A stretch of DNA of 64,000 nt from NCBI GenBank assembly GCA_902778165.1, contig CACYWQ010000012.1, positions 39,156 through 103,155 of the forward strand, written 5' to 3'. The notes under the pieces were generated by a model that made no database searches, was not told the DNA's origin, and saw nothing but the letters and a program-made list of their open reading frames with translations. The DNA comes from an uncultured Lachnospiraceae bacterium (lineage in GTDB: Bacteria > Bacillota > Clostridia > Lachnospirales > Lachnospiraceae). Positions 3,780 to 60,914 of this stretch are shown in pieces (positions within the stretch are counted from its first letter, which is position 1; every line of letters begins with the position of its first letter). A program made the position numbers and the translations under genes.

Positions 3780-3796
3780 TCTCTATTGTATTTAAT

Positions 3797-3825: not shown

Positions 3826-3833
3826 CTTTTATT

Positions 3834-6388: not shown

Positions 6389-6422
6389 CATAAGGATTAC
6401 ATTCCGATTAACGGTAGCGGTC

Positions 6423-8126: not shown

Positions 8127-8153
8127 ATCAGACAGAAATAAAGAGGGTATATT

Positions 8154-8873: not shown

Positions 8874-8887
8874 TCCGGAGGAGAGTT

Positions 8888-9907
8888 ATGAAAAAAAGTG
8901 TGCAGATTGCGGCGATCATACTGGCATCAGTACTTGGTGTCGGTGTGCTTGTCGGCGGAGGATATATGGCATATAAGACCATGGGTACTTCGAAGGTTAT
9001 TAATCTCAATGATTATATCCAGGTGGATTTTAGCGGCAAAGACGGTAAGGGCAAGGCCTCTTTGGATTATGATACCGAAACCATGAAGGAGGATTACCCC
9101 AGAGTGGATGTGGATGGTCTGTTACATAAATGCGTAGACGGTGAATTTGACTCATCCAAGAACTTAAGTAACGGAGATAAGATTACCTGGGAATGGGATT
9201 GCGATGACAGTAAGGCAAGCAGTGAATACCGCGTGACACTTGAATACGAGGATGAGACATTCAAGGTCAAGGGCCTTAAGAATCCGGACCAGGATAAGGA
9301 TAAGGATAAGGACCAAGATAAGGATAACGACAAAGATAAAGACAAGGATAAGGATAAGGATAAGGATAAAGACCAAGACAAGGACAAAGATAAGGATAAG
9401 TCGGCGGGTGATTTAAATATCGCAAAGAGTATGACGGAGATTGATGAAGATGTGCTTGATGCGATAGAAGACAGAGGCTTTGATATCTTAGATGATCATT
9501 ATGAGAATGATTACAGTGCCTTTGAACTTGTATTGAGTACGGAATATATCGGTACCGGATTTGCATCGGGCAAGTCAGGGGCAGCCTATGATAATATCGT
9601 TCAACCCGTGTATAAGGTAACCGTATGTGATGACTATAACAGAAACGGATCATTTGATGATGCAGACGATCCGGTCGTTACATTTTACACATACATAGAT
9701 TTCTATAATGTGCCATGCGAGGATGAATACAAAGATAAGGTTAATGCACTGGAATGGCATATGACCGGCTCGATATACAGACCCAATGACAGCTTCTATT
9801 ACTGGGGGACGGAGACGTTGGAAGATCTTATAGAGTATATGATGTATTACTATTCGGATGACTATGTATTGGGGGAGTACGACCTGGAGGACATAAGCTC
9901 GATTTAA
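8888..9907 (+). CDS. membrane-anchored extracellular protein with Asp-Lys repeat linker
   Basis: A 339-residue protein not recognised as a known family. An N-terminal helix (about 6-29) anchors it without a lipobox Cys. A first beta-rich domain (about 36-130) resembles a YfmR-like or Gram-positive surface module by composition only; then 38 residues of almost pure Asp-Lys (residues about 134-171) form a rigid or unstructured charged linker, followed by a second domain with several Asp/Tyr-rich stretches (NRNGSFDDADDPV could bind calcium). A good ribosome site (GGAGGAG) precedes the ATG. It precedes the sensor kinase by 24 bases, so it could be a sensor partner, which is inference. Confidence 0.6.
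   Translation: MKKSVQIAAIILASVLGVGVLVGGGYMAYKTMGTSKVINLNDYIQVDFSGKDGKGKASLDYDTETMKEDYPRVDVDGLLHKCVDGEFDSSKNLSNGDKITWEWDCDDSKASSEYRVTLEYEDETFKVKGLKNPDQDKDKDKDQDKDNDKDKDKDKDKDKDKDQDKDKDKDKSAGDLNIAKSMTEIDEDVLDAIEDRGFDILDDHYENDYSAFELVLSTEYIGTGFASGKSGAAYDNIVQPVYKVTVCDDYNRNGSFDDADDPVVTFYTYIDFYNVPCEDEYKDKVNALEWHMTGSIYRPNDSFYYWGTETLEDLIEYMMYYYSDDYVLGEYDLEDISSI
9287..9400 (+). repeat. hexanucleotide repeat encoding (Asp-Lys/Gln/Asn) x19
   Basis: Nineteen degenerate GAYAAR-type hexamers in frame, 114 bases, encoding 19 D-x pairs where x is Lys 15 times, Gln three times and Asn once. Synonymous GAT/GAC and AAG/AAA changes show selection on the protein rather than on an exact DNA repeat. Slippage could change its length between strains. 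Confidence 0.9.
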
Positions 9908-9931
9908 CACTTTAATACATGGGATGGAGAC

Positions 9932-12900
9932 ATGAGAAGAGAGAACGGAAACACAATCGGCAATACCAAGATTTCGATAATTGAGATTATCAGAAGATAC
10001 GGATTCAGAAGAGCGCTGGTATTTGTATTTCTTGCGTTGTTTTTCTCTGCGCTTATACTTATTTACAATACCGTGCTCGGTAATTATGTAAGAAACGGAA
10101 TTCGTGCCAAGAACGAGATAAATGCGCTTAATTCCGCTCAGGAGGTTGAAATATATCTTTCTACCGGTAAGGATATTATCGGTGTCACACAGCATGCCGT
10201 GACGGATTTGATTAAAGAGAATGCATCGGATGAGGCGATTCTGGATTATCTTACGGAGCAGACTCATGTCATACAGAATTCCGTGCTGCCGGCATCTACA
10301 GGAATATACGGGTGCATAAGAGGTAAGTATTTCGACGGTTCCGGATGGGAGCCTGAGGAAGGCTATGTACCGCAGGAGCGTCCCTGGTATACAGAGGCTG
10401 TGGAGGATGTCGGAGAGACAGTGTTAATCAATCCTTATTTTGACCTGTATTCAAACGAAGTCGTTATGACCATAGCCAAATCTCTGTCTGATGGTGAGAA
10501 TGTTGTTGCCGTAGATATTACGCTTGGAAGAATACAGGAAATTACTGAGATGAACTCTGGAACGGGAACGGAATCGGGATTAAATACATCCAGAATCGTG
10601 GTCAGTAACAATGGATTTGTGGTAGCGCATTCCGATTCCGAAGAGAGAGGACATAATTATCTTGAGGAGAAAGGAACTTTCGGTAATCTAATCCTTATGA
10701 GTATATTGGAGGATGAGGATGATTATTCGGAGATAGAGTATCGGGGTCATAAATATACCGTATACGGTGTGCCCATCGGTAACGGATGGTACGGAATATC
10801 CGTAGTTGATGCCAGGAATGAATACAGGGCAATGTACACGCTTTTTGCAACCAGTGCGTTTGCCTTACTAGCGACATTCATCATATTTACCATTATCATG
10901 TTACGGACCGGAAGAAGAGAACTTCTTAATGACAAGCTTCAGTCGGTATTGGGTTCTTCTGCGGATATATACATGTCGTTATGTGACTTGGATGTTATTA
11001 ACAATACAGTTGAAGGAATCAAGAATGTCAATCCGGCGGTAGCCAAGGCCGTAGAATCATGTGACCATAACATGAAGGAACTGTTCTTGGGAATCATGCA
11101 GGCACTTCCCGAGAGTCCGACCAAGCAGGCGGCAATTGATTTTACGGATCTAAATACAATAGATGAACGTATGAAAGATACCGATACGTCGGCAATTGAG
11201 TATTTAAGCTATGGCGATATATGGGTCAGGGCAAGACTCGTGGTATCGGAGAGAACCAAGGATAACAAGGTATCCCATGTATTGTGGATGCTTGAGAATA
11301 TTGATGAAGAGAAAAAAGAAAGAGACAGGCTTGTAGATCTGTCCGAGAAGGCACTGGCCGCAAGCGAGGCCAAATCATCATTCTTATCAAATATGTCACA
11401 TGAAATACGTACGCCCATTAATGCAATCCTGGGTATGAATGAAGTGGCATTAAGAGAGTGTGAGGATGATAATATCAAAGAATATCTAAATAATATTCAA
11501 TCATCGGGCCATACTTTGCTTGAACTTGTTAATGATATTCTGGATGTATCCAAGATTGAGTCGGGTAAGCTTGAGATTATTCCCGTGGAATATGAATTGT
11601 CATTTATGCTTAACGATTTGATTAACATGATACGTCCCAGACTTGAGCATAAGGGTCTTGAGTTAATCGTAGATATCGATAAGACCATACCTCAGTCATT
11701 ATACGGTGATGATGTAAGAATCAAGCAGGTTATAACCAATATCCTGACCAATGCGGTTAAGTATACCGAGAAGGGAAGTATTACTTTCAAAATGGAATAC
11801 AAGGGCATGGGCAGCGATGAGAACAGTATAATGCTGCACGTAGCCGTTAAGGATACCGGAATCGGTATTAAGAAAGAGGATATCAATAAACTGTTTGTGG
11901 AATTTGAGCGTATCGAAGAGAAGCGTAACCGAAACATTGAGGGAACCGGTCTTGGAATGGCTATTACCAAAACTCTGCTTGAACTTATGAACAGTTCGCT
12001 TAAGGTTGAAAGTACTTATGGGGAAGGTTCTGAATTCTCGTTTGACATTGTTCAGGAAGTAAGAGACTGGACGCCGATAGGTAATTATGAGTCGGCCTAC
12101 AGGAATTCAATTGCACACGAAAAGATTCATTACGGATCGTTCACCGCTCCCGATGCAAGGATTCTGGTGGTTGATGATACACCCATGAATTTGCTTGTAT
12201 TTACCAGTCTTCTTGAGCCTACCAAGATAGTAATTGATACGGCGGATAACGGAGATGACGGAATTAAGAATGCACTCGGCATGAAGTATGACCTTATCTT
12301 CTTTGATCATATGATGCCTCATAAGGACGGTATAGAGACACTTAAAGAGCTTAAATCTTATGAGGGAAATATCAACTGGTCCACACCGATTGTATGTCTG
12401 ACGGCCAATGCCATTACCGGTGCCAGAGAACAGTACATTGAGGCGGGATTTGATGACTATCTGACGAAGCCTATCGATTCAAGGAAACTTGAAGAGATGA
12501 TTGTTAAGTATCTGCCGCGCAATAAGATTATGGCCAAGAAAGAGGAGATCTCTAACAATGTTAAGAAAGATAATATTGAGGAGGATACCGTTTCTCATCT
12601 TCCCGAATATCTTTTCTCGATACGTGATCTCGATCCGGTTGACGGAATGAAGAGATGCGGAAGTGAGAAGATATATCTGGATGCGCTCAATGCATTTGCC
12701 AGATATGTCGAGCCGACAATTAAGGCTACTCACGGATATTTGTACAATAAAGACATGAAGGATGTTATGATCAATGTTCATTCCATTAAGACGGCATCCA
12801 AGTTGGTGGGAGCAACACATATATGTGACATGGCTCAGAAGATTGAGAATGCCGGAGAGGAAGGATTTAACGTTGATGCTTTAGATGAATTGTTTGACAG

Positions 12901-48514: not shown

Positions 48515-49264
48515 ATGAGAACGTTGGATACAAATGATTGGATTTTTTTAAACAGCATAATTTATAAGATTTATACTATGAATAATATCGATGATATGAG
48601 AGAACAGTTCTTAGAACAGATGAAGATGCTTATAGACTATGACAGCGCGGACTTTCTGTTGGCATCTCCCGATGGTGAGAATAAGCTTGTTTCGCCCGTG
48701 CTTTTTAACTGTGAAGAAGATATGTCAATTGCATATGAAGAACTGGATTACAGTCGCGGAATACTATACAGCGGTAAGACACTGATATACAGAGAAACAG
48801 ATATTATCGATGATTCCAAGAGAGTAGAGACCGACTATTATAAGAAAGTATATAAGACCAATAACTGGCATTATTCGTTGCAGATGGTTCTTGCAAGAAA
48901 GAAGGAATTTGTCGGTGTGATCACATTCTACAGGTCTATCGGGAAGGATGATTTCGTATATGATGATATATTTATTCTTGATCTGTTGAAGGATCATTTG
49001 GCATACAGACTATATCAGCAGAAAAAAAGCGGTAATCTGGTAAGCGAAAAATTATCAGTTGCGGGAGCGACCGAGAAATACAATTTAACCAGAAGAGAAG
49101 AGACAATACTGCGTCTTCTCATGGAGGGGAGAGATAATGTTACGATATGTGATTCACTGGTCATTTCAGAGAATACACTTAAGAAGCATATTCTTAATCT
49201 CTACCGCAAATTAGGTATAAATAACAGGGTAGGTCTTTTCAAAATGATTAGAGAAAAGGACTAA
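48515..49264 (+). CDS. LuxR-family regulator with GAF-like sensor domain
   Basis: A 249-residue transcription factor. Residues about 15-165 look like a GAF/PAS-type sensor domain; residues about 186-249 are a LuxR-type helix-turn-helix (YNLTRREETILRLLMEGRDNVTI, ENTLKKHILNLYRKLGINNR, abridged). It lacks a receiver domain, so it senses a ligand or another protein directly. It has AAGGAGG before the ATG. It sits between purF and the P-II/pot operon, so regulation of these nitrogen genes is likely. Inverted repeats next to neighbouring promoters could be its operators, which is inference. Confidence 0.85.
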   Translation: MRTLDTNDWIFLNSIIYKIYTMNNIDDMREQFLEQMKMLIDYDSADFLLASPDGENKLVSPVLFNCEEDMSIAYEELDYSRGILYSGKTLIYRETDIIDDSKRVETDYYKKVYKTNNWHYSLQMVLARKKEFVGVITFYRSIGKDDFVYDDIFILDLLKDHLAYRLYQQKKSGNLVSEKLSVAGATEKYNLTRREETILRLLMEGRDNVTICDSLVISENTLKKHILNLYRKLGINNRVGLFKMIREKD

Positions 49265-49334: not shown

Positions 49335-49368
49335 ACTCGTATCAAATAAATAGCGAAAAGAAGTGGCA

Positions 49369-49404
49369 AGAGGGCTGTATTTAATGTACAGCCCTCTTTT
49401 TTTT
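49369..49404 (+). terminator. terminator/attenuator in the P-II/pot leader
   Basis: An 11-bp perfect stem AGAGGGCTGTA / TACAGCCCTCT, loop TTTAATG, followed by eight Ts. It lies between the promoter and the ribosome site (AAGGAGG, about 49430) of the P-II gene, so expression should depend on how often polymerase passes it. Confidence 0.85.
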
Positions 49405-49443: not shown

Positions 49444-49794
49444 ATGAAAGAATTAATTATCATTATCAGGCCTGAGAAGTTGGAAGACGTTAAGAATGTT
49501 TTGGATAAAGTTCATTGCGGCGGAATGACATTATCAACGGCAATGGGTTGCGGAACACAGAAGGGATCCGTTGAAGGTACGGTTAATGAGATTAAGGGTC
49601 TTAAGACTACTATTAACCTTCTCCCCAAGATCAAGGTTGAAGTAGTGGTATCTGATAAGGATGTTGAGACTGTGATCATGAGTATCAGAGAGATCTGTGC
49701 GACCGATCATGTCGGAGACGGAAAGATATTCATAAGGAACATAGAAGATGCCATAAGGATTCGTACAGGTGAAAGAGGTGTGAAGGCTCTATAA
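49444..49794 (+). CDS. P-II nitrogen regulatory protein
   Basis: A 116-residue stand-alone P-II family protein (KELIIIIRPEKLEDVKNVLD, AMGCGTQKG, LLPKIKVEVVVSDKD, VGDGKIFIRNIEDAIRIRTGERG). Its T-loop has no Tyr in the uridylylation position and differs from the amtB-fused copy, so it is unlikely to be uridylylated. P-II proteins sense 2-oxoglutarate and ATP/ADP. It is the first gene of the operon with potABCD, 13 bases before potA, so it may control the transporter. The fused P-II of AmtB has the same core but a longer T-loop. Confidence 0.93.
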   Translation: MKELIIIIRPEKLEDVKNVLDKVHCGGMTLSTAMGCGTQKGSVEGTVNEIKGLKTTINLLPKIKVEVVVSDKDVETVIMSIREICATDHVGDGKIFIRNIEDAIRIRTGERGVKAL

Positions 49795-49807
49795 CGGAGG
49801 TGTTCGC

Positions 49808-50917
49808 ATGGGAACAATTATTGAATTAACAGGTGTAAATAAAATATACGGAACAAACCATGTGGTCAAGGATTTAAACCTTACGGTTGAAGAAGGTGAG
49901 TTCCTTACACTCCTTGGTTCATCCGGATGTGGCAAGACTACTACTCTTAGAATGATAGCAGGATTTGAGGGACCCACAACCGGATCGATCAAGGTTGAGG
50001 GTGAATCGATAGAGGAGAAAGAGCCGTTTGAGAGAAATGTCAATACAGTATTTCAGACATATGCGCTTTTTCCGCATAAGACCATATTTGACAACATAGC
50101 TTACGGTTTAAAGATGAAGAAGGTGCCTAAGGCTGAGATCAAGCAGAGAGTTCTTGAGATGATGGATATGGTTCAGTTAACGGGATTTGAGAACAGATAT
50201 CCGAGTCAGTTATCAGGCGGACAGAAACAGAGGGTTGCCATAGCCAGAGCGCTTATTAACAGGCCAAGAGTATTACTGTTAGATGAACCGTTGGGAGCGC
50301 TTGACCTTAAGCTCAGAAAGCAGATGCAGCTTGAACTTAAGAGATTGCAGAAGAAGCTCAATATTACATTCATATATGTAACGCATGATCAGGAAGAAGC
50401 TCTGACAATGAGCGACAGAATCGCAATAATGCATGATGGAGTTATTGATCAGTTGGCAAGTCCCAAAGACATATATGAACATCCCGCAACAAGATTCGTT
50501 GCAACGTTTATAGGTGAGACAAATACATATGACGGTTGTGTCACAAGTATGTCGGATGGAATTGCCACAGTTACCCTTGAGAACGGTGCTGTCAGAGTTA
50601 AATGTGACGACAGTTTCAATATTCTGGAATATGCCACTGTATCGGTAAGACCTGAGAGCATGAGATTTGATACCAAGCCCCATGAAGGATTTGAACTTGT
50701 GGCGGTGGTTAAGGATTTCATATATGTGGGTTCTGTTCTTAAATGTATTGTGTCCCTTCCAAACGGAAATGAACTTAAGATAGAGAGATTGTCCGGTCAG
50801 GAATTACCTGAGATAGGAAGCAGGATTTATCCTTATTGGGATCCCATGGACGGAGTATTGATACACAATGACAGTTACAAGATATTTAAGGCATTGGATG
50901 AGATCAAACTTGCGTAA
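49808..50917 (+). CDS. potA: ABC transporter ATPase, PotA-type (spermidine/putrescine)
   Basis: A 369-residue ABC ATPase: Walker A GSSGCGKTT (about 38-46), Q-loop FQTYALFPHKT, signature LSGGQKQRVAIARAL, Walker B VLLLDEPLGALD, H-loop VTHDQEEAL. The C-terminal regulatory TOBE-like region (about 240-369) fits PotA. It powers uptake of polyamines or similar cations. GGAGG lies before ATG 49808. It is followed by potB, potC and potD. Confidence 0.93.
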   Translation: MGTIIELTGVNKIYGTNHVVKDLNLTVEEGEFLTLLGSSGCGKTTTLRMIAGFEGPTTGSIKVEGESIEEKEPFERNVNTVFQTYALFPHKTIFDNIAYGLKMKKVPKAEIKQRVLEMMDMVQLTGFENRYPSQLSGGQKQRVAIARALINRPRVLLLDEPLGALDLKLRKQMQLELKRLQKKLNITFIYVTHDQEEALTMSDRIAIMHDGVIDQLASPKDIYEHPATRFVATFIGETNTYDGCVTSMSDGIATVTLENGAVRVKCDDSFNILEYATVSVRPESMRFDTKPHEGFELVAVVKDFIYVGSVLKCIVSLPNGNELKIERLSGQELPEIGSRIYPYWDPMDGVLIHNDSYKIFKALDEIKLA

Positions 50918-50946
50918 AAAATAAACAAACGAAAGGAAGGCCGCTT

Positions 50947-51822
50947 ATGAAGAAAATATCAAAGCATGAGTTTAAATCAAATACGATGCCGGCCATAGTA
51001 ACGGTTGGCCCGGTGGCATTATTGCTACTTCTTCTGGTGCTGGCTCCTTTGATATTTGTTACCGTAATGAGTTTCTGTCAGACGGATGAATTCTATAACG
51101 TCGTATACAGATTCACTTCGGTAAACTATAGCAAACTGTTTTCACCTGATTACATTAAGATATACGGTCAGTCATTATTAATAGCATTTATAACAACACT
51201 TATATGTGTCTTAATAGGTTATCCGTTTTCTTATGTTATAGCGAGAACAAAGAGTAAGAAAAGACAGTTGTTTTATATGTTGGTCATCATTCCTTTCTGG
51301 ACCAACTCTCTTATAAGAATATACGGATGGAGAACATTCTTAGGAAGCAGCGGTTGGCTTAATAAGTTATTAATGTCAATGGGTGTTGCAGTCGAACCGA
51401 TTGAACTGTTGTATAAGACGGGTACTACGGTCCTGGGTATGGTGTATTGCTTTATACCCTTTATGGTTCTTCCACTGTATACGGCAATCGAGAAATTAGA
51501 TGCAAGTCTTCTGGAAGCATCATCCGATCTTGGTGCAAGACCGGTTAAGACTTTATTTGAAGTAATACTTCCCCTTACTTCAAGCGGAATATTCTCAGGA
51601 TGCATAATGGTATTCATCCCGTGTCTCGGATACTTCTTCGTATCGAATATCCTTGGCGGAGGTAATACTGATATGATAGGTAACCTGATTGAGAGGCAGT
51701 TTAAGAGTGCAAATAACTGGCCCCTTGGTGCAGCGTTATCAATCATTCTCATTGTCGTGACACTGATACTTGTCAAGATATACCAGAAGCTTGGCGGCGA
51801 TATGGACAGTCTTGGAGTATAG
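50947..51822 (+). CDS. potB: ABC transporter permease, PotB-type
   Basis: A 291-residue permease with six membrane helices (first about 20-40). The EAA loop lies at EASSDLGARPVKTLFEVILP, the contact site with PotA. The extracytoplasmic loop between helices 1 and 2 (FCQTDEFYNVVYRFTS) is as in PotB. It pairs with PotC. The gap to potA is 29 bases with a good ribosome site (GAAAGGAAGG). Confidence 0.93.
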   Translation: MKKISKHEFKSNTMPAIVTVGPVALLLLLLVLAPLIFVTVMSFCQTDEFYNVVYRFTSVNYSKLFSPDYIKIYGQSLLIAFITTLICVLIGYPFSYVIARTKSKKRQLFYMLVIIPFWTNSLIRIYGWRTFLGSSGWLNKLLMSMGVAVEPIELLYKTGTTVLGMVYCFIPFMVLPLYTAIEKLDASLLEASSDLGARPVKTLFEVILPLTSSGIFSGCIMVFIPCLGYFFVSNILGGGNTDMIGNLIERQFKSANNWPLGAALSIILIVVTLILVKIYQKLGGDMDSLGV

Positions 51823-51831
51823 GAGGCTTAT

Positions 51832-52638
51832 ATGAGAAAAGCTAAGAAAGAAAAGAGAATAAAAAGACTAAGCATAGTGTTCTGTTCATTGGTTTATCTG
51901 TTCTTGTTTCTGCCTATATTTGTTGTAGTATCAAATTCATTTAATGCTACAACGACCAAGCCGTACCTAAGCTGGAAAGGATTCACTTTAGATTGGTATG
52001 TTAAGCTTTGGGACAATTCGGCGTTGCTTGAATCATTCGGCAACACGATCATCATTGCAATTGCCAGTACTATCCTCGCCACAATAATAGGTACGCTTGG
52101 TGCGGTAGGAATTTATAGATATAAGTTTAAGGGTAAGGGAATTATCAACGGTCTGTTGTATATTCCGGTAGTTATTCCCGAGATTGTTATAGGTATTGCA
52201 TTATTAACTATATTTACCAATGCCAATGTTCCAAGAGGCATGCTTACATTAATCCTTTCACATGTAAGTTTCAGCGTGCCTTATGTAATATTCAATGTAC
52301 GGGCAAGGCTGTCGGGATATGATAAATCAATCGAAGAAGCGAGTATGGATCTTGGAGCGAACAGAGTTGTTACTTTCTTTGAGATAACTCTTCCGGTGTT
52401 GGCACCGGGTATTGCAGGAGGAGCATTACTTGCATTTACCCTTTCAATTGATGATGTAATAATCAGTTATTTTGTGAACGGACAGACCAAGACATATCCT
52501 CTTAAGGTTATGGAAAGTATTAAAAGTGGTGTTTCTCCGGATGTAAATGCGCTCTCAACACTTGTGCTGATCGGAACGATTGCACTGGTGTATATAACGC
52601 AGAGCGGAATATTATCCGGTAAGCATAATAAAATCTGA
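51832..52638 (+). CDS. potC: ABC transporter permease, PotC-type
   Basis: A 268-residue permease with six membrane helices and an EAA loop (EEASMDLGANRVVTFFEITLP). The SFNATTTKPYLSWKGFTLDWYVKL region after the first helix is typical of PotC. It starts nine bases after potB with AGGAGG upstream. PotB and PotC together form the channel of the transporter. Confidence 0.93.
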   Translation: MRKAKKEKRIKRLSIVFCSLVYLFLFLPIFVVVSNSFNATTTKPYLSWKGFTLDWYVKLWDNSALLESFGNTIIIAIASTILATIIGTLGAVGIYRYKFKGKGIINGLLYIPVVIPEIVIGIALLTIFTNANVPRGMLTLILSHVSFSVPYVIFNVRARLSGYDKSIEEASMDLGANRVVTFFEITLPVLAPGIAGGALLAFTLSIDDVIISYFVNGQTKTYPLKVMESIKSGVSPDVNALSTLVLIGTIALVYITQSGILSGKHNKI

Positions 52639-52664
52639 CAACAGATTTACGAGGAGGAAAAAAT

Positions 52665-53729
52665 ATGAAGAAAAGGATTTTAGCAGCATTAGTTTCATTA
52701 TCACTTGCAGCGTTGAGTATGACAGGATGCGGCTCATCGAATGGAGGAGGTGCTTCAACGGATCAGGGCGAATTGAATATCTTTGTATGGACCGAGTACC
52801 TGCCGGATTCTGTTGTTGAGAAATTTGAAAAGGAAACAGGAATTAAGGTAAATGTTTCGACATATTCTTCAAATGAAGATATGCTTGCCAAGGTTAAGTC
52901 CGAGACAGCCGGAGCATATGATCTGCTTGTCCCCAGTGATTATATGGTAGCACAGCTTATTGCTCAGGATATGCTTAAGGAACTTGATTTTGAGCAGTTA
53001 CCGAACTTCTCTCATATAGGTGAGAGTTACAAGAACCCGTCTTATGATCCCGGTAATGTGTATTCGATTCCTTATATGGGTGGTGCCGGTGCAATAGTTG
53101 TTAATACGGATAAAGTGGATATGGATATAACAAGTTATGCTGATCTTTTTGATCCTTCCTTGGAAGGACAGTTGGTGGTGCTTGATGACTTCCGTGCTGT
53201 TATCGGTATGACATCCAAAGCTTTGGGATATGACCTTAATGAGACAGACCCGGATAAGTTAACTGAGGTGTCCGATAAGTTAATGGAACTTAAGAAAAAC
53301 GTTGTGCTCTATGATTCGGATTCACCTAAAAGTGCGCTTATATCAGGCGATTGTGCTGCCGGTATGATTTGGAGTGCGGAAGTAGCAATGGCAATGGAAG
53401 AGGTTCCTTCGATTGAAGTAATATATCCTACAGAGGGTGCATATTTATTTTTTGATAACTGGGTTGTGACCAAAGAATCTCCTAACTATGATAATGCACT
53501 TAAGTGGATGAACTTTATTATGGAGCCTGAGAACATGGAACTTGTTCTCGCTGAGTTCCCATATCTCTGCGCCAACACAGATGCAGTAGCTAACATGGGT
53601 GAGGAGTACAGCGGCAATCCCGCCAAGAATCCTCCGTCAGATGCTATCGCTAAGGGAAGCTATGTAGAGAATCTCGACAGTGCAACTCTCGATATCTATA
53701 ACGAGATGTGGACTAAACTTAAAGAGTAA
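52665..53729 (+). CDS. potD: polyamine-type substrate-binding lipoprotein, PotD-type
   Basis: A 354-residue lipoprotein of the PotD/PotF family. The signal peptide ends in a lipobox with Cys22 (LSMTGC). The mature domain starts with LNIFVWTEYLPDSVVEKFEKETG, a family hallmark, and continues with SYADLFDP and YPTEGAYLFFDNW. It should bind spermidine, putrescine or a related amine. Substrate residues were not compared with known structures, so the exact ligand is not assigned. GAGGAGG precedes ATG 52665; a hairpin follows before OCD1. Confidence 0.93.
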   Translation: MKKRILAALVSLSLAALSMTGCGSSNGGGASTDQGELNIFVWTEYLPDSVVEKFEKETGIKVNVSTYSSNEDMLAKVKSETAGAYDLLVPSDYMVAQLIAQDMLKELDFEQLPNFSHIGESYKNPSYDPGNVYSIPYMGGAGAIVVNTDKVDMDITSYADLFDPSLEGQLVVLDDFRAVIGMTSKALGYDLNETDPDKLTEVSDKLMELKKNVVLYDSDSPKSALISGDCAAGMIWSAEVAMAMEEVPSIEVIYPTEGAYLFFDNWVVTKESPNYDNALKWMNFIMEPENMELVLAEFPYLCANTDAVANMGEEYSGNPAKNPPSDAIAKGSYVENLDSATLDIYNEMWTKLKE

Positions 53730-53762
53730 TCATCTTTGTCAACTTCATAATTATAGGCAAAA

Positions 53763-53792
53763 GACCCGGGATAGTACCTACTGTCCCGGGTC
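53763..53792 (+). other. hairpin between potD and the first OCD gene
   Basis: A 12-bp stem GACCCGGGATAG / CTGTCCCGGGTC (one G-U pair) with a six-base loop. No U-run follows, so it may stabilise the mRNA end or partly separate potD from OCD1. Confidence 0.6.
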
Positions 53793-53813
53793 GACAATTA
53801 AAGGAGGTATTAA

Positions 53814-54962
53814 ATGGCTATAGATTTCTTATATCTAAGTGAAAAAGACATGATCGATGCAGGCGTACTCGATGCCAAGGGATGTGTTGAGGCCATGAGA
53901 GATGTCATGAGCCTGTTTGGTAAGGGGGATTTCCTGCTTGGCGGTCCTAAGAACGATGAACACGGATTACAGATGAATTTTCCTAAGGCTAAGGATATAG
54001 AGGGTTTCCCTCTTGATAACGGGCCTGACAGAAGATTCAATGCCATGCCGGCTTATCTTGGCGGAAGATTCCATATGGCAGGACAGAAGTGGTACGGTTC
54101 TAATCATGCCAATTTAAGTAAGGGCCTGCCAAGGTCCATTCTTATGGCAACTCTTAATGATGTTGATACCGGTGCGCCTGTGGCATATATGTCAGCCAAC
54201 TTACTAAGTGCAATGAGAACGGGAGCCATGCCTGCCATGGCAGCATCATATCTTGCCAATAAAGACTCAGAGGTACTTACCATACTGGGTCCAGGTGTTA
54301 TCAATAAATGTGCCTTGATGTGTTATATGGCTGTTCTGCCTGATATTAAGAAAGTCAAGATCAAGGGCAGTAGTCCCACATCGGCTTCGACTCTGTCCAT
54401 GAAAGCTTTTATAGAGGAGAAATATCCGCAGATCAAAGAGATAGAAATATGTAAGACGTTGGAAGAGGCATGTCGTGATTCTGATGTTGTAAGTGAGGCC
54501 ATGTCCGTGACTCCGGATAAGGCCGAGGAATTCCATCTTGATTGGTTTAAAAAGGGAGCATCCATATTCTCTATGGGCAGCTTCTTATACAGAGATTTCG
54601 ATGAACTTATCGGAACCACCATGGTTGTAGATAACTACGGAATGTATGATAAGTACATGAACAACTTCATCGCAAGAGGACCGGTTGATGAACTCGGCAA
54701 CAAGCGTGAGTGGGTAATCATGGGTATCCATTTTGTTCATCTTGTAAGAGAAGGTAAGATCAAGAGAGAGCAAGTCCTTAATCTCTGCGATATTGTCAAC
54801 GGAATCACTCCGGGCAGAAGGACGCATGATGAAATCGTTATGTGCAGCAGCGGAGGAATGCCTATAGAGGATGTTGCATGGGGTTATGATTGTTATAAGA
54901 AGGCTTTAAAGCTTGGAATAGGTACAAAACTTAACCTATGGGATGAGCCGTATTTAAGATAA
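53814..54962 (+). CDS. ornithine cyclodeaminase / mu-crystallin family enzyme (1)
   Basis: A 382-residue NAD(P)-dependent OCD-family protein. The N-terminal domain holds the conserved MPAYLGG...KWYGSN and RSILMATLNDVDTGAP regions; LTILGPGVINK is the Rossmann loop. Members make proline from ornithine, or reduce ketimines such as pyrroline- or piperideine-2-carboxylate. It sits between the Pot transporter and an oxidase cluster, so a role in amine or imino-acid metabolism is likely. I recall similar proteins being named tyramine oxidase subunit B, which I cannot verify. AGGAGG lies before the ATG; a close paralogue follows. Confidence 0.8.
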   Translation: MAIDFLYLSEKDMIDAGVLDAKGCVEAMRDVMSLFGKGDFLLGGPKNDEHGLQMNFPKAKDIEGFPLDNGPDRRFNAMPAYLGGRFHMAGQKWYGSNHANLSKGLPRSILMATLNDVDTGAPVAYMSANLLSAMRTGAMPAMAASYLANKDSEVLTILGPGVINKCALMCYMAVLPDIKKVKIKGSSPTSASTLSMKAFIEEKYPQIKEIEICKTLEEACRDSDVVSEAMSVTPDKAEEFHLDWFKKGASIFSMGSFLYRDFDELIGTTMVVDNYGMYDKYMNNFIARGPVDELGNKREWVIMGIHFVHLVREGKIKREQVLNLCDIVNGITPGRRTHDEIVMCSSGGMPIEDVAWGYDCYKKALKLGIGTKLNLWDEPYLR

Positions 54963-54978
54963 CTACTTATTTAGTAGT
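54962..54978 (+). promoter_or_regulatory. inverted repeat between the two OCD genes
   Basis: ACTACT-TATTT-AGTAGT overlaps the stop codon of OCD1 and lies 43 bases before the -35 of the next promoter. It resembles the repeat at 49267-49281. Confidence 0.35.
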
Positions 54979-55021
54979 ACATAAGCCACAAAATGAGTAT
55001 AAAAACGGTGAGAGTAAGTAA

Positions 55022-55050
55022 TTGATGAAGTACTTACCAAGGTGTAGATT
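55022..55050 (+). promoter_or_regulatory. promoter of the OCD2/oxidase operon
   Basis: TTGATG (55022-55027) and TAGATT (55045-55050) with 17 bases between. The terminator hairpin at 55063 starts a few bases after the predicted start. Confidence 0.45.
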
Positions 55051-55062
55051 ATATGCATGAAG

Positions 55063-55103
55063 AGGCAAAAGGGTCTATTTATTGATCCTTTTGCCTTTTG
55101 TAT
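55063..55103 (+). terminator. terminator/attenuator before OCD2
   Basis: A 13-bp stem AGGCAAAAGGGTC / GATCCTTTTGCCT (one G-U pair), eight-base loop, followed by TTTTGTATTT. It either ends the pot-OCD1 transcript or, with the promoter at 55022, controls readthrough into the oxidase operon. Confidence 0.75.
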
Positions 55104-55154
55104 TTAAGAAAGATAAACAGACGGATGATTATATTTCGTCGGGAAGGAAAGCAT

Positions 55155-56288
55155 ATGAGTTATCCAGCCATTGATTTTTTGTTTCTAAGTGAAGAAGACA
55201 TGATAAGAGCAGGAGTTAAGAATATGGCAGCCTGCATTGATGCCATGGAAGAAGTAGTCAAATGTTTGAACGCCGGTGATTATGTGATGGGCGGTGAGAA
55301 TCATAATTCCCACGGAAGTCAGGTTTCATTCCCTAAGACTTCACCATTTCCCAATATGCCTCTTGATGTCGGTGATGACAGAAGATTCATGGCAATGCCT
55401 GCATATATAGGTGGCCCGTTTGATCTTATGGGAATGAAATGGTACGGATCGAATATGTCCAATAAGAATAAAGGCCTTCCCAGATCGATACTTACGGTAA
55501 TGTTAAATGATAAAGATACAGGTGCACCTCTTGCATTAATGAGTGCCAATCTGTTAAGCGCATACAGGACCGGAGCCATTCCGGGAGTCGGAGCCAAATA
55601 TCTTGTAAGAAAAGACGCTAAGGTATGCGGTATCTGCGGACCGGGTGTTATGGGCAAGACCTCACTTGCAGCAATTATGGCGACTTGCCCCAATATAGAT
55701 ACACTCAAGGTCAAGGGCAGAGGTAAGGCATCGCTTGAGAAATTCATACAGTTTGTTAAAGAAGAATATCCGACACTTAAGACAGTGGAAGCTGTGGATA
55801 CCGTGGAGGAACTTATCAAAGACAGTGATGTTATATCATTTGCCAATTCCGGAGGAACGGATCCTTCAACCTATCCCTTTGTTAAGAAGGAATGGATCAA
55901 GCCGGGAGCAGTGCTTATCGGTGTAAGTGCCTTTGATATGGATTCTAAAGAATTAAAGAGTCTGTCGCTTGTTGTAGATAATATCAAGTTATATGAAGCA
56001 TGGGCAGAAGAGTTTCCTTATCCGTCCTTTGGAGCGAACAATATAATCGGATCGAAATTTACGGATATGGTTCATGACGGGCTGATATCAATGGATGAGA
56101 TCACAGACTTAGGTGACATTATTTTCGGCAAAAGGCCCGGGCGTGTAAGTGATGACCAGATATTCGTATATTCGGTGGGTGGCATGCCGGTGGAGGATGT
56201 AGCTTGGGGTAAGGTTTGTTATGAAAATGCGAGAAGACTGGGACTTGGGACCAAACTAAGACTGTGGAACGAACCGGATATGCATTAA
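55155..56288 (+). CDS. ornithine cyclodeaminase / mu-crystallin family enzyme (2)
   Basis: A 377-residue paralogue of the preceding OCD protein, clearly alike throughout (MPAYIGG, MKWYGSN, LPRSILTVMLNDKDTGAP, LSAYRTGA) with Rossmann loop GICGPGVMGK. The ATG at 55155 fits the N-terminus of its paralogue and has GGAAGGA upstream. It starts an operon with the 2Fe-2S, FAD, BFD and DAO-type oxidase genes. The pair may act on different imines or form a heteromer; catalysis is not proven by the sequence. Confidence 0.8.
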   Translation: MSYPAIDFLFLSEEDMIRAGVKNMAACIDAMEEVVKCLNAGDYVMGGENHNSHGSQVSFPKTSPFPNMPLDVGDDRRFMAMPAYIGGPFDLMGMKWYGSNMSNKNKGLPRSILTVMLNDKDTGAPLALMSANLLSAYRTGAIPGVGAKYLVRKDAKVCGICGPGVMGKTSLAAIMATCPNIDTLKVKGRGKASLEKFIQFVKEEYPTLKTVEAVDTVEELIKDSDVISFANSGGTDPSTYPFVKKEWIKPGAVLIGVSAFDMDSKELKSLSLVVDNIKLYEAWAEEFPYPSFGANNIIGSKFTDMVHDGLISMDEITDLGDIIFGKRPGRVSDDQIFVYSVGGMPVEDVAWGKVCYENARRLGLGTKLRLWNEPDMH

Positions 56289-56338
56289 TAAACCTGAAAC
56301 GATATGCGGAATATGGAATTTGGAAGGAGAGGATCATT

Positions 56339-56665
56339 ATGGCAGACAGAATTGATGAGCATCCGATACTGGGTGCTTTGGAGAAAGGTCAGACGGTAAA
56401 GTTTACATTTGACGGTAAAGAAATAGAGGGATATGAGGGCGAACCTATAGCCGCAGCACTTAAGGCGGCTGATGTAATGGTTCACAGGTATACACAGAAA
56501 GAGCATAAACCCAGAGGAATATTCTGTGCTATAGGTCGTTGCACAGACTGTGTAATGATAGTTGACGGAGTTCCCAATGTCAGGACATGTATTACACCGC
56601 TTAAGGCGGGAATGGTAGTTAAGACTCAGTACGGTGTGTCGGCTGAACCCTTTGATAAACAGTAG
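56339..56665 (+). CDS. 2Fe-2S ferredoxin-like subunit (HcnA/SoxA N-domain type)
   Basis: A 108-residue protein of the Fer2_4 type that joins amine/imino-acid oxidase complexes such as hydrogen cyanide synthase HcnA. The cysteines are Cys63, Cys68, Cys71 and Cys84 (CAIGRCTDC...RTC), which hold one [2Fe-2S] cluster. I chose ATG 56339, with GGAAGGAGAGG upstream, over earlier in-frame starts. It precedes the FAD subunit by 12 bases. It should transfer electrons from the dehydrogenase subunits. Confidence 0.85.
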   Translation: MADRIDEHPILGALEKGQTVKFTFDGKEIEGYEGEPIAAALKAADVMVHRYTQKEHKPRGIFCAIGRCTDCVMIVDGVPNVRTCITPLKAGMVVKTQYGVSAEPFDKQ

Positions 56666-56677
56666 GAGGACATGACT

Positions 56678-58255
56678 ATGAAAAGATATGATTTGATTAT
56701 TGTTGGTGCAGGTCCTTCAGGTCTTTCAGCAGCAATAGAAGCGGCTAAGAGGGGACTTAACGTTGTTGTATTTGATGAGAATGAGAAGCCCGGAGGACAG
56801 TTATTTAAGCAGATCCATAAGTTCTTTGGATCCAAAGAGCATCGTGCCAAAGTAAGGGGATTTGTAATAGGCAAGCAACTTCTTGATGAAGCGGCAGAGG
56901 CAGGAGTATCAGTGGTACTTAATGCGACTGTCATAGGTCTGTATCAGGACAAAGAAGTTGTGGTTAAGATGGGTGAAGAGATTAAACACTATAAAGCTGA
57001 TGCTGTTGTAATTGCTACGGGTGCAGCCGAGAATATGGTCACATTTCCCGGTTGGACATTACCGGGTGTGATAGGTGCAGGTGCAGCTCAGACGCTTATG
57101 AATCTTCACGGAGTATTACCCGGTAAGAGGGTACTTATGCTTGGTTCAGGTAATGTCGGATTGGTGGTTTCTTTCCAGTTATTACAATGTGGATGTGAGG
57201 TTGTTGCACTGGTTGATGCAGCGCCCAGAGTAGGAGGATATGGTGTACATGCGGCCAAGGTAGCAAGGACCGGAGTTCCATTCTATTTATCCCATACTAT
57301 TGTTGAGGCGGAAGGTGATGACTGTGTTAAGGGTGTAACCATAGCACAGGTAGATGAGAAATTTGATTTCATCCCGGGAACCGAGAAGCATTTTGATGTT
57401 GATACCATATGTCTTGCTGTAGGATTATCTCCTATGTCGCAACTTCTTAAGATGGCGGGTGCTCAGATGGAAGATAACCCGAAGCGTGGCGGACAGGTTC
57501 CGATATGTGATGAGTATGGACGCACTTCTATTCCGGGTGTGTTCGTTGCAGGAGATGTGTCAGGAATAGAAGAGGCATCTTCAGCCATGATAGAAGGAAG
57601 AATGGCAGGCGTTGTTGCGGCTGAGTATTTGGGATATACAGATGAAGAAGCAATGCAGTCGGAATTGGAAGAACTTAATAAGGCTCTGGATGGATTAAGA
57701 CAGGGAATGTTCGCTCCTAAGAATCGAGGCAAGGCGATCGAGAAGACAGAAGAAGGAATCGATATTTCCCAGAACCTTCTTAAGAACGGTTATGTTGCAG
57801 ATGATGAGATAGAGAGATTTCCGGGAGTGACACATAAGAAGGGTGTACATCCCGTTATAGAGTGTACACAGAATATACCGTGTAATCCCTGTCAGGATGC
57901 ATGTCCCAAGAAGTGTATCTCAATCGGAAACAATATTACATCGCTTCCGATAGTGGTTGATAACAGTGAATGCATCAATTGCGGAATGTGCGTGGCAAGT
58001 TGTTCGGGACAGGCGATATTCCTTGTTGATGAAGACTGTGGGGACGGAACGGCAACGGTTACCCTTCCTTATGAGTTCCTGCCGCTTCCGGCAGAAGGAA
58101 CCAAGGGTATTGCACTTGGAAGAAGCGGTAAAGAAGTATGTGAGGCAACTGTTGTATCGGTTAAGTCAGCCAAGGCATTTGATAAGACAAATCTGCTTAC
58201 AATGAGAGTACCTAAGGAATATGCCATGACGGCAAGATTCTTCAAAGTCATGTAA
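56678..58255 (+). CDS. FAD/NAD(P)-type oxidase subunit with 2x[4Fe-4S] domain (HcnB-like)
   Basis: A 525-residue flavoprotein. FAD loop VGAGPSG (about 9-15), second nucleotide loop MLGSGNVG (about 153), GVFVAGDVSG near residue 290, then a ferredoxin domain with CxxxxxCxxCxxxC (Cys396, 402, 405, 409, 413) and CINCGMCVASC (432, 435, 438, 442), enough for two [4Fe-4S] clusters. HcnB-like subunits usually end in a BFD-like domain; here it is a separate gene. The ATG at 56678 is eight bases from AGGAGG; ATG 56672 is too close. Electrons from the substrate probably go to ferredoxin or NAD rather than O2. Confidence 0.85.
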   Translation: MKRYDLIIVGAGPSGLSAAIEAAKRGLNVVVFDENEKPGGQLFKQIHKFFGSKEHRAKVRGFVIGKQLLDEAAEAGVSVVLNATVIGLYQDKEVVVKMGEEIKHYKADAVVIATGAAENMVTFPGWTLPGVIGAGAAQTLMNLHGVLPGKRVLMLGSGNVGLVVSFQLLQCGCEVVALVDAAPRVGGYGVHAAKVARTGVPFYLSHTIVEAEGDDCVKGVTIAQVDEKFDFIPGTEKHFDVDTICLAVGLSPMSQLLKMAGAQMEDNPKRGGQVPICDEYGRTSIPGVFVAGDVSGIEEASSAMIEGRMAGVVAAEYLGYTDEEAMQSELEELNKALDGLRQGMFAPKNRGKAIEKTEEGIDISQNLLKNGYVADDEIERFPGVTHKKGVHPVIECTQNIPCNPCQDACPKKCISIGNNITSLPIVVDNSECINCGMCVASCSGQAIFLVDEDCGDGTATVTLPYEFLPLPAEGTKGIALGRSGKEVCEATVVSVKSAKAFDKTNLLTMRVPKEYAMTARFFKVM

Positions 58256-58270
58256 AGGGAGGGATTGGAT

Positions 58271-58600
58271 ATGAACAGTGTTAATGACAGATCAAGAGAT
58301 ATAGGACCTTTTGTACCGGCTCCCGATGATGATATGTTGATATGCCGTTGTGAAGAGATAACAAAAGGTGAGATAAGGCAGGCGGTTCATGACGGAATGT
58401 GGACCATAACCGAGATACGAAGATACTTAAGAGCCGGAATGGGATTGTGTCAGGGACAGACATGTTCAAGGCTTGTTAAGGGAATAGTGGCTAAAGAACT
58501 TGGAGTATCACCTGCGGAGATTGAACCTGCCACAAGCAGAGTACCTATGCGTCCGATAGAGATGCGTATCTTTGCAAATGAAGCAAAGGAGGATGATTAG
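58271..58600 (+). CDS. BFD-like [2Fe-2S]-binding protein
   Basis: A 109-residue small protein with Cys25, Cys27, Cys60 and Cys65 (ICRCEEIT...GLCQGQTC), the pattern of BFD-like [2Fe-2S] domains. In HcnB or opine-oxidase subunits this domain is fused; here it is free. It starts 15 bases after the FAD subunit (ATG 58271, GGGAGG upstream; TTG 58265 is less likely) and ends just before the DAO-type gene. It completes the electron-transfer chain of the complex. Confidence 0.85.
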   Translation: MNSVNDRSRDIGPFVPAPDDDMLICRCEEITKGEIRQAVHDGMWTITEIRRYLRAGMGLCQGQTCSRLVKGIVAKELGVSPAEIEPATSRVPMRPIEMRIFANEAKEDD

Positions 58601-58601
58601 T

Positions 58602-59732
58602 ATGAACAGTAATGCTGAAGTTGTAGTAATTGGCGGTGGAATAATCGGTAACTCTGCAGCATATTATCTGGCCAAGAGGGGATTAAGCGTAATTGTCCTT
58701 GAGGGAAGTGACTTTATAGGTAACGGCGGATCCAGCAGAAACGGCGGAGGAGTCAGACAGTCAGGAAGAGATGTAAGAGAACTGCCTCTTGTTATGTATG
58801 GTATCAAGAATCTCTGGCCTACATTATCTGAAGAGTTGGAGACGGATTGTGAATACCATCAGGATGGTAACCTTCGTCTTGGTAAGAATGATAAACATAA
58901 AGAGATTCTGACCAAACTTGCGACTAATGCACAGAGCTGCGGATTGGATGTAAGAATGATTGATGCAGCTGAGGTTAGGAGTATTAACCCTTATCTGTCG
59001 GATGAAGTAACCTGTGCAAGCTGGTGTCCTACAGACGGACATGCCAATCCTCTGACGACAACCCTTGGCTATTACAAGATGGCCAGACGCCTCGGAGTAA
59101 GGTTTATTTCCGGTGAGAAGGTAACGGAACTTAGGATGGTCAAAGGTAAGGTAAGAAAGGTCATATGTGAATCAGGTGATGTATTCGAAGGAGAGAATAT
59201 ATTAGTTGCAGCCGGATATGACAGCAGGGCAATCTTAGGTACAGTGGGAGTGGATATACCGATGACAAGATCTCTGCTTGAATGTCTAGTAACGGAAGCC
59301 GAACCCCATATGTTCGATCAGATGCTTGGAACTGCCGAGGCGGATTTCTACGGACACCAGACCAAGCATGGTTCGTTTGTTTTCGGAGGTTCATCCGGAT
59401 TTGAAGGCAGTAATAAGGATAACGGTACGCCCATATCAAATGCCAAGACAGCCCCTTGTATCTGTCGCGGTATCATGAAATACTTCCCGGATCTTGCTAA
59501 TGCCAAGATAGTCAGGACGTGGGCAGGATGGAGTGATAAATGTGCAGACGGAGTAGCAGTGGTAGGCGCCATAGATGAGGTACCGGGATTATATACATCC
59601 TGTGCAATGTCAGGCCACGGCTTCGGTATAGGACCGGCAGCAGGTCATCAGTTGGCACAGCTTATTGCTACAGGAACTACGGATGTAGACTTAAGTACAC
59701 TCAGATATGACAGATTCAAGGCTAAGATATAA
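58602..59732 (+). CDS. FAD-dependent amine/imino-acid oxidoreductase (DAO/HcnC-like)
   Basis: A 376-residue DAO-family flavoprotein (VVVIGGGIIGNSAAYYLAKRG, SSRNGGGVRQSGRD, then the C-terminal AMSGHGFGIGPAAGHQLA). Relatives oxidise glycine, sarcosine, opines, proline or hydroxyproline. As the catalytic subunit it would take a hydride from the C-N bond and pass electrons to the FAD/Fe-S subunits. ATG 58602 has GGAGG upstream. Gene order 2Fe-2S, FAD, BFD, DAO copies hcnABC or oox-type complexes. The substrate is unknown. Confidence 0.85.
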   Translation: MNSNAEVVVIGGGIIGNSAAYYLAKRGLSVIVLEGSDFIGNGGSSRNGGGVRQSGRDVRELPLVMYGIKNLWPTLSEELETDCEYHQDGNLRLGKNDKHKEILTKLATNAQSCGLDVRMIDAAEVRSINPYLSDEVTCASWCPTDGHANPLTTTLGYYKMARRLGVRFISGEKVTELRMVKGKVRKVICESGDVFEGENILVAAGYDSRAILGTVGVDIPMTRSLLECLVTEAEPHMFDQMLGTAEADFYGHQTKHGSFVFGGSSGFEGSNKDNGTPISNAKTAPCICRGIMKYFPDLANAKIVRTWAGWSDKCADGVAVVGAIDEVPGLYTSCAMSGHGFGIGPAAGHQLAQLIATGTTDVDLSTLRYDRFKAKI

Positions 59733-59753
59733 GCAAGTAACGGAGGAGCATAT

Positions 59754-60914
59754 ATGAACAATTACGAATATTGCGTTCCTACAGATATCAGATTCGGTAA
59801 GGATCAGGTAGAGTGCTTATCTAAAGAGATAGGCAAATACGGGAAGAGAGTTCTTATGGTATACGGCGGAGGAAGTATCAAAAGAACCGGTATATATGAT
59901 AAGATATATGAAGTATTAAAGGACTATGAGATATACGAACTGCCTGGTATAGAGCCTAATCCGAAGTTAGCATCCGTTAAGGAAGGTACCAAGATATGTA
60001 AGGATAATAATATAGATGTTGTGTTGGCTGTAGGAGGCGGAAGTTGTATAGATGCATCCAAGCATATCGCAGCAGCAGCATACTATGACGGCGATCCATG
60101 GGACCTTGTTATGGATAAAACGAAGGTGACTGAGGCGCTGCCTGTTTTCACAGTGCTTACAATCTGTGCTACAGGTTCAGAGATGAACCCCGGTGCTGTT
60201 ATAAGTAACGAGGAGACTAAGGAGAAACTTGAACTTAATCATCCGCTTCTGTATCCCAAGTTGTCGGTATGTGATCCGACATATCTGTATACATTGCCGG
60301 GCAAGCAGACGGCAGCGGGAACAGCGGATATAATCTCGCATATATTTGAACAGTATTTCCAACCAAATGACGGAGCTTACATTACTGACAGATTAAGTGA
60401 GGCGGCACTTAAGACATGTTTCAAATACGGTCCGATCGCAATGACGGAGCCTGAGAATTATGAGGCCAGATCCAATCTGATGTGGACAAGTTCGATCGCA
60501 CTTAATCATCTGTTTACATTTGGTAAGGGAGGGGCGTGGTCGGTGCATCCTATTGAGCATGAATTGTCAGCCTTCTATGATATTACCCACGGTATCGGTC
60601 TTGCAATCCTGACTCCGGCGTGGATGAGATATGTACTTAATTCCAATACAGTTGCCAGATTTGCCATGTATGCCAGAAATGTATGGGATATTGTTGCAGA
60701 AGATGATTATGAGGCAGCGAATGCCGGAATAGATCGTACGGAGCAGTTTTTCATCAAATTGGGATTGCCGACAAGGCTTTCGGAGTTGGGAATAGATGAT
60801 TCACAATTTGAACTGATGGCTTCCGAGGCAGTCAGAACAAGCGGATTATCTACAAGAGCATATGTTAAGCTTGATGTAGGCGATGTGACACAGATATACA
60901 GAGATTGTTTATAA
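59754..60914 (+). CDS. iron-containing alcohol dehydrogenase (butanol-dehydrogenase-like)
   Basis: A 386-residue NAD(P)-dependent group III alcohol dehydrogenase. The GGGS loop (LAVGGGSCIDASK) and the metal ligands in TADIISHIFEQYF and HPIEHELSAFYDITHGIGLA are intact. It could reduce an aldehyde made by the oxidase complex to an alcohol and recycle NADH. GGAGG precedes ATG 59754, 21 bases after the DAO gene, so it is the last gene of the operon. YqhD/BdhA relatives have broad substrates, so the aldehyde is not named. Confidence 0.9.
   Translation: MNNYEYCVPTDIRFGKDQVECLSKEIGKYGKRVLMVYGGGSIKRTGIYDKIYEVLKDYEIYELPGIEPNPKLASVKEGTKICKDNNIDVVLAVGGGSCIDASKHIAAAAYYDGDPWDLVMDKTKVTEALPVFTVLTICATGSEMNPGAVISNEETKEKLELNHPLLYPKLSVCDPTYLYTLPGKQTAAGTADIISHIFEQYFQPNDGAYITDRLSEAALKTCFKYGPIAMTEPENYEARSNLMWTSSIALNHLFTFGKGGAWSVHPIEHELSAFYDITHGIGLAILTPAWMRYVLNSNTVARFAMYARNVWDIVAEDDYEAANAGIDRTEQFFIKLGLPTRLSELGIDDSQFELMASEAVRTSGLSTRAYVKLDVGDVTQIYRDCL

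Follow-up and report, generated by a model that had tools for sequence, protein, structure and literature searches.

Gene content of the locus

We analysed a gene cluster in a 64,000-nucleotide stretch of DNA (the window; contig CACYWQ010000012.1) from an uncultured Lachnospiraceae bacterium. The cluster encodes a PII protein, a PotABCD-type transporter, two OCD-family enzymes, an iron–sulfur flavin complex and an iron alcohol dehydrogenase (ADH). All named genes were located on the plus strand with intact reading frames, and family matches bore out the gene order and coordinates listed in the first-pass annotation of this DNA. The PII gene (49444–49794; PF00543) heads potABCD. Of the four pot genes, the ABC transporter ATPase gene potA (49808–50917) alone exceeded its model cut-off in the NCBIfam scan (TIGR01187, 379 bits, cut-off 356). 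The permeases potB (50947–51822; best NCBIfam model PotB, 284 of 348 bits) and potC (51832–52638; best model PotC, 260 of 326 bits) each scored below their own cut-offs, as did the potD-like binding protein (52665–53729; PF13416; PRK09501, 240.6 of 582 bits; PDB PotD, 224 bits), whose polyamine pocket is altered. The two OCD genes, ocd1 (53814–54962) and ocd2 (55155–56288), both matched OCD_Mu_crystall. The complex is encoded by fer2 (56339–56665), a 2Fe-2S subunit (Fer2_4; PF13510, 7e-32); pyr (56678–58255), an FAD/NAD subunit (PF07992, 1e-40) with a Cys-rich ferredoxin-like stretch in which Fer4 scored just under the Pfam cut-off (PF00037, PF12838); bfd (58271–58600), a BFD-type 2Fe-2S subunit (PF04324, 3e-13); and dao (58602–59732), an FAD subunit predicted to be amine-oxidising (PF01266, 3e-66). 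The last gene (59754–60914; PF00465, 5e-46) encodes the iron ADH, a putative YqhD-like aldehyde reductase; its best NCBIfam model was YqhD, below the cut-off (PRK15138, 318.6 of 645 bits).

Conservation of the gene order

A scan for relatives of dao gave 392 stretches, the best 80 of which were taken as loci; judged by their titles, these were mostly from rumen and gut Lachnospiraceae, and many were metagenome-assembled. Fifty of the 80 had sufficient flanks (at least 9.5 kb upstream and at least 1.3 kb downstream of dao). The exact order PII-potABCD-ocd1-ocd2-fer2-pyr-bfd-dao-adh, which the first-pass annotation had proposed to look for in relatives, was found in 28 of these 50 loci, although they are not independent cases, since many of the 80 loci are closely related. 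The arrangement is not due to chance. Among the other 22 flanked loci, three were pot-type variants with inserted (L057, L060) or rearranged (L083) genes, the insertions being the agmatine genes aguB and aguA described below. Fifteen lacked pot and adh and combined the complex with one OCD gene and with genes for an AraC regulator, a PII protein and an APC permease, and four were otherwise different (L091, L097, L102, L109). Across all cluster types, 32 genomes in the family sample of 299 contained a dao relative (E ≤ 1e-60); at this threshold none was found in a congener of the window genome (G213).

Separation of the pot and oxidase genes in related genomes had been named beforehand as a finding that would speak against a joint function. 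Such separation was seen in part. The dehydrogenase does occur without pot genes, next to an APC permease and one OCD gene, but ocd1 stays with the transporter: potB was present in 37 of 42 ocd1 loci, and four of the remaining five were cut off at ocd1 or potD. The true exception, L063, has ocd1 and adh, yet an APC permease lies nearby.

The gene-order table comprised 110 loci, four of which (L119, L120, L136, L138) lacked a dao row; the other 106 were all used in dao clustering. Trees were built from 66 representatives at 90% dao identity, with 73 rows in the OCD tree. In the dao tree, pot-type loci were placed in the clade of the window and, separately, among APC-type loci (L132, L137, L147); the placement of the long branches L123, L146, L129 and L125 is unsure. 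In the OCD tree, the ocd1 clade (support 100/99) contained 22 rows, namely the window ocd1, L063 and 20 pot-type rows, six of which come from the second dao lineage. The window ocd2 grouped with OCD genes of APC-type loci. On the basis of these clades, ocd1 is part of the pot module and ocd2 is of the general kind. The second lineage likewise combines potABCD with two ocd1-type OCD genes, and L137 and L147 additionally have PII and adh, which supports the pathway proposed below.

A second, distant complex is present in the genome of the window itself (L136, G000:C4, 5861–13823; dao 28%), after a CysK-like gene and followed by genes for a Xaa-Pro-dipeptidase-like amidohydrolase and proC. We rejected this paralogue as an instance of the same system, since its CysK-like gene, distant complex and proC indicate a different one.

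The dehydrogenase complex

By sequence and by fold, the closest solved relative of dao was the L-proline dehydrogenase of Pyrococcus horikoshii (1y56_B). Sarcosine oxidase (beta), dimethylglycine dehydrogenase (DMGDH), iminodiacetate oxidase and opine dehydrogenase followed among the fold matches, which are oxidases and dehydrogenases of amino acids. Many of these enzymes act on carboxylate-bearing secondary amines, and an N-alkyl amino acid therefore suits the modelled subunit better than a free diamine. The mean pLDDT of the dao model was 81.5, with values below 50 at residues 39–48; the adjoining R49 was invariant in 18 sequences. The resemblance to the proline dehydrogenase does not extend to pyr, for which phmmer found no match among PDB chains at 1e-20.

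The cut-offs for heterotetrameric sarcosine oxidase were not reached (soxB model 136.5 of 529, soxA model 138.6 of 1164), and fer2, pyr and bfd together covered the N-terminal two thirds of the SoxA model. The Pfam output of the locus proteins contained neither a folate (GcvT) domain nor sarcosine-oxidase-like gamma or delta subunits, which we take to be features of the dehydrogenase of the N-methylglutamate pathway. In 13 of the 106 loci, a RidA gene was located near dao (at distances of 14 bases to 3.5 kb), which is compatible with an imine product.

OCD enzymes

Both OCD proteins scored high enough to be assigned to NF004848, 'tyramine oxidase subunit B' (ocd1 436 bits, ocd2 553 bits, cut-off 362); searches of open-licence papers yielded none with this name. 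The scores against the SbnB model TIGR03944 were below its cut-off (140 and 167 bits, respectively, cut-off 327). The structure of OCD2 was predicted with a mean pLDDT of 92.5, and the four best of 92 Foldseek matches (E ≤ 0.001) were SbnB entries, a fold that is common to the whole OCD family. Lys95 and Arg138 were invariant in 16 OCD sequences, and SbnB and alanine dehydrogenase have a Lys and an Arg at the corresponding positions.

SbnB takes part in staphyloferrin B synthesis. With NAD+ it hydrolyses an N-substituted glutamate oxidatively, releasing an amine and 2-oxoglutarate (PMC7139808). Run in reverse, this reaction would join an amine and 2-oxoglutarate into the type of product made by GmaS and MgsABC.

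A glutamine synthetase-like set in place of OCD

In three relatives from three families (L127, L140, L146), genes for a glutamine synthetase (GS)-like protein and for MgsABC-like subunits with class II GATase, GXGXG and Glu_synthase domains, with a RidA gene, were found beside the same complex (the GS/Mgs set; domains assigned by Pfam in L127 alone). All three belong to the 13 loci with RidA. Partners of the complex were counted in the 60 loci with at least 7 kb of flank on both sides: 54 had OCD, three had the GS/Mgs set, none had both and three had neither. After collapsing at 90% dao identity (n = 40), the counts were 35, 3, 0 and 2, respectively. One genome (G773) carries both versions, in the separate clusters L139 and L140. 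Searches for MgsC yielded G054 itself and four matches at 37–39% identity among 61 relatives of G054, and among 382 genomes of the class only G773 and G1003, which carry the known L140 and L146 and add no new case.

None of the GS-like proteins reached the curated cut-off of any GS model. At GlnA D50 they have A, C and A, respectively, and at E327 all have F; PuuA is likewise changed at these positions (P and Y). Nine of 12 other GlnA sites tested were kept in all three. We take D50 and E327 of Escherichia coli GlnA to be ammonium-site residues; judged by their loss, as in PuuA, the GS-like proteins are probably amine ligases rather than ammonia ligases.

In the N-methylglutamate gene set, mgsABC and gmaS are combined with mgdABCD. 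GMAS and NMGS make N-methylglutamate, which the dehydrogenase splits into glutamate and formaldehyde, and NMGS may also reductively methylaminate 2-oxoglutarate directly (PMC6237917). The window locus contains neither gmaS nor mgsABC, which are represented by the similar set in the three relatives. Two observations, the presence of the GS/Mgs set where OCD otherwise stands and the top ranking of SbnB among the fold matches of OCD2, suggest that formation of an N-alkyl amino acid by OCD precedes the oxidation.

Substrate of the transporter

Genes for N-carbamoylputrescine amidase (aguB) and agmatine deiminase (aguA) were found in or beside the operon in eight of the 80 loci. Their arrangement took three forms: they lay between ocd1 and ocd2 in L057, L060 and L071, followed adh in L076, L078, L086 and L090, and were convergent beside adh in L066. 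Model cut-offs were applied to the L060 pair, which exceeded them (455 and 562 bits). Because these enzymes are encoded within the operon of relatives, agmatine or putrescine is a candidate substrate.

An alignment of 37 PotD sequences, 34 of them of the window lineage, was examined at the polyamine-contact sites. W34, Y37, Y85, D168, W229, D257 and Y293 were kept in all 34 window-lineage sequences, in which T84D, E171A and W255F were fixed and Q327 was V, L or I. The agu genes and the mostly kept PotD pocket support the link of the locus to amines. Together with the gene order, they also uphold, at the sequence level, the earlier prediction of a conserved PII-headed locus for amine uptake and oxidation with a probable aldehyde reductase.

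A proposed pathway for polyamine nitrogen

With about even confidence, we propose that this operon, which begins with PII and belongs to anaerobic Lachnospiraceae of the gut and rumen, recovers polyamine nitrogen through OCD condensation followed by oxidative cleavage. PotABCD would import the amine, either putrescine or agmatine that is turned into putrescine. The OCD enzymes would condense the primary amine with a 2-oxo acid, most likely 2-oxoglutarate, at the expense of NAD(P)H; N-(4-aminobutyl)glutamate is an example of the N-alkyl amino acid that would result. In the next step, the fer2-pyr-bfd-dao complex would oxidise the C–N bond on the alkyl side, and hydrolysis, perhaps aided by RidA in some relatives, would release the amino acid and 4-aminobutanal. 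Electrons would leave via the Fe-S centres and a second flavin to NAD+ or ferredoxin, and the iron ADH would reduce the aldehyde to an alcohol. The net reaction would be a transamination without pyridoxal phosphate (PLP) or oxygen, analogous to the N-methylglutamate pathway with OCD replacing GmaS and MgsABC. If the complex reduces NAD+, condensation and cleavage would be redox-neutral, since the second step would make up for the NAD(P)H consumed in the first.

The gene content, the conserved order, the mutual exclusivity of OCD and the GS/Mgs set, the linkage to agmatine enzymes in relatives and the pocket residues were observed by computation, whereas we infer all of the reactions and their directions, as well as the identity of the 2-oxo acid, the electron acceptor and the product. 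Several further points weigh against the proposal. SbnB is described as cleaving, and the condensing direction is our assumption. Archaeal alanine dehydrogenase and pyrroline-2-carboxylate reductase followed SbnB closely in score among the OCD2 fold matches, and by sequence alanine dehydrogenase and SbnB were alike (115.7 and 114.8 bits). Two of the four genomes of the phylum that exceeded the NF004848 cut-off (G575, G586) had an OCD gene without the complex in the stretch read. Neither partner was found within 7 kb of the complex in L081, L091 and L109. The GS/Mgs set is known from three loci, one of them long-branched (L146), and could serve another amine. Enzymes of primary amines were also among the dao matches (glycine oxidase, L-amino acid deaminase, D-arginine dehydrogenase), and none of the 13 loci with RidA was pot-type. 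The loss of E171, W255 and Q327 in PotD may mean that the ligand is not spermidine, or not even a diamine, and two second-lineage loci, L132 and L137, have lost most of the pocket. Agmatine deiminase was not detected in the genome of the window. Among the window-lineage pot genomes of the family sample, defined by adh beside dao at ≥ 66% identity, three of eight encoded the enzyme (G014, G037, G223; near the locus in G037 and G223), compared with 65 of 291 other genomes. Since this is no clear genome-wide enrichment, the evidence for agmatine is one of position and not of co-occurrence.

Comparison with known systems

Like the N-methylglutamate pathway, the proposed route would convert an amine to an N-alkyl amino acid that a dehydrogenase splits into an aldehyde and an amino acid. 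Both have a DAO-type subunit within a multi-subunit dehydrogenase, and a GS-like and MgsABC-like set accompanies the complex studied here in three relatives. The systems differ in that OCD would occupy the place of the GS/Mgs set, in the lack of the folate (GcvT) domain in the complex, in the added pot transport, PII and aldehyde reductase, and in the anaerobic hosts. In the Puu pathway of E. coli (PuuA, PuuB), a glutamate handle is likewise attached to putrescine before oxidation by a DAO-family enzyme, but the handle is a gamma-glutamyl amide, the oxidase presumably uses oxygen, and an aldehyde dehydrogenase stands where the window has a reductase. SbnB resembles OCD2 in fold and shares the N-substituted glutamate, NAD+ and 2-oxoglutarate of the proposed reaction; it differs in the cleaving direction and in that the window OCD proteins fall below its model cut-off.

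Alternative explanations

It is unlikely, in our judgement, that the dao complex oxidises a free amine directly to an imine, with the OCD enzymes reducing or processing the imine and the ADH reducing the aldehyde. PuuB, a DAO-family protein with 26% identity to dao, is annotated as a gamma-glutamylputrescine oxidase and thus offers a precedent with a putrescine derivative, although its substrate, too, bears an amino acid handle. The RidA genes within 3.5 kb of dao would fit a free imine, and the primary-amine enzymes among the dao matches point the same way. However, the best OCD fold matches (SbnB, alanine dehydrogenase, pyrroline-2-carboxylate reductase) take carboxylate substrates, and the RTG Arg is invariant; the GS/Mgs set that excludes OCD beside the complex makes an N-alkyl amino acid. 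The first-pass annotation had also placed C–N oxidation before the handling of an imine by OCD; given the GS/Mgs set in the place of OCD in three loci and the SbnB-like fold of OCD2, this order is probably wrong.

We consider it quite improbable that the transporter takes up a ready-made opine or N-alkyl amino acid, which the dao complex and OCD would cleave on either side of the secondary amine. The dao fold matches do include a flavin opine dehydrogenase and iminodiacetate oxidase, the PotD pocket has lost E171 and Q327, and SbnB cleaves such a compound (PMC7139808). On the other hand, the agmatine-to-putrescine enzymes in the operon of relatives supply an amine and not an opine, the aromatic and Asp cage of PotD is mostly kept, and amines would be the starting material from which the GS-like proteins next to the complex, as probable amine ligases, build compounds of this kind.

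The GS-like and MgsABC-like genes of L127, L140 and L146 might merely assimilate ammonia released by amine oxidation and be uninformative on OCD. GS and glutamate synthase domains do form an ammonia assimilation pair, and the GS-like proteins, below all curated cut-offs, are named by no model. We nevertheless regard this as very improbable, given the two lost ammonium-site positions, the lack of a glutamate synthase beta subunit in the three loci as read, and the complete separation of the set from OCD (0 of 60 loci). Finally, a route for cyclic imino acids, with the complex as a proline dehydrogenase relative and the OCD enzymes as pyrroline-2-carboxylate reductases, is the most doubtful: it matches the closest solved structure of dao and one of the OCD matches, but PotABCD and AguAB do not fit it, and no proline or hydroxyproline gene was seen in pot-type loci read gene by gene. 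The proline, hydroxyproline or opine metabolism offered as an alternative in the first-pass annotation is likewise improbable; no gene for it was seen in those loci.

Wider implications

Polyamines are abundant in the gut. To our knowledge, their bacterial degradation is known mostly through oxygen-dependent oxidases, transaminases or gamma-glutamylation. A pathway of OCD and a flavin oxidase for amines, including such a polyamine route, was not found described in searches of open-licence papers. If correct, OCD condensation followed by oxidative cleavage would account for a putrescine and agmatine sink, assign a role to the proteins named 'tyramine oxidase subunit B' and provide a testable case for OCD-family proteins as amine-condensing enzymes. 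More broadly, and with somewhat less than even confidence, OCD may be a reductive condensing enzyme for amines and 2-oxo acids and the Fe-S flavin complex an N-alkyl amino acid dehydrogenase, acting on polyamines here and on other amines in APC-type clusters. The two would act together as a transaminase that needs neither PLP nor oxygen and is a modular alternative to GmaS and MgsABC, with PII as the link to nitrogen status.

Regulatory features and minor observations

A LuxR-type (GerE HTH) regulator gene (48515–49264, plus strand; PF00196, 4.5e-15) extends the span given in the first-pass annotation on its 5' side. It was located immediately 5' of PII in 25 of 29 loci with PII-potA among the best 80. 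The PII gene of the window sits at potABCD, as do genes of the PotN subfamily, and its position at the head of the operon is compatible with nitrogen control. Thr occupies the position aligned to Tyr51. PotN of Lentilactobacillus hilgardii (7o4x), a Firmicute PII-like protein, was the second-best PDB match (91 bits), slightly below another PII protein (2eg1, 96.5 bits). PotN has been studied together with PotA of a polyamine transporter (PMC9692440).

Intergenic gaps were short apart from three, after the regulator, between potD and ocd1, and between ocd1 and ocd2. Each contained a hairpin (fold z-scores −5.65 to −6.70): a terminator-like hairpin at 49368–49398 (plus strand; terminator scan; z −5.65), a 13-pair hairpin without a T run at 53763–53792 (plus strand; z −5.66) and a third near 55061–55098. 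Terminator-like sites were no commoner in the scan than in shuffled sequences. The stable hairpins at 53763–53792 and 55061–55098 flank ocd1 and perhaps allow its differential expression.

In L119 and L120, an NF004848-type OCD gene lies by a dipeptide-type ABC transporter without the flavin complex; L119 also has hydantoinase-like genes, named by reading. The stretch of L109 (Acidaminococcus fermentans, 2352–11137) contains the complex without an OCD or GS/Mgs partner, and upstream genes that by reading are 2-keto-3-deoxygluconate-permease-like, altronate-dehydratase-like and DapA-like. In the second lineage, an amidohydrolase, perhaps an N-acyl amine hydrolase, is encoded in L132 (13703–15373; Amidohydro_3) and L147 (12975–14621).

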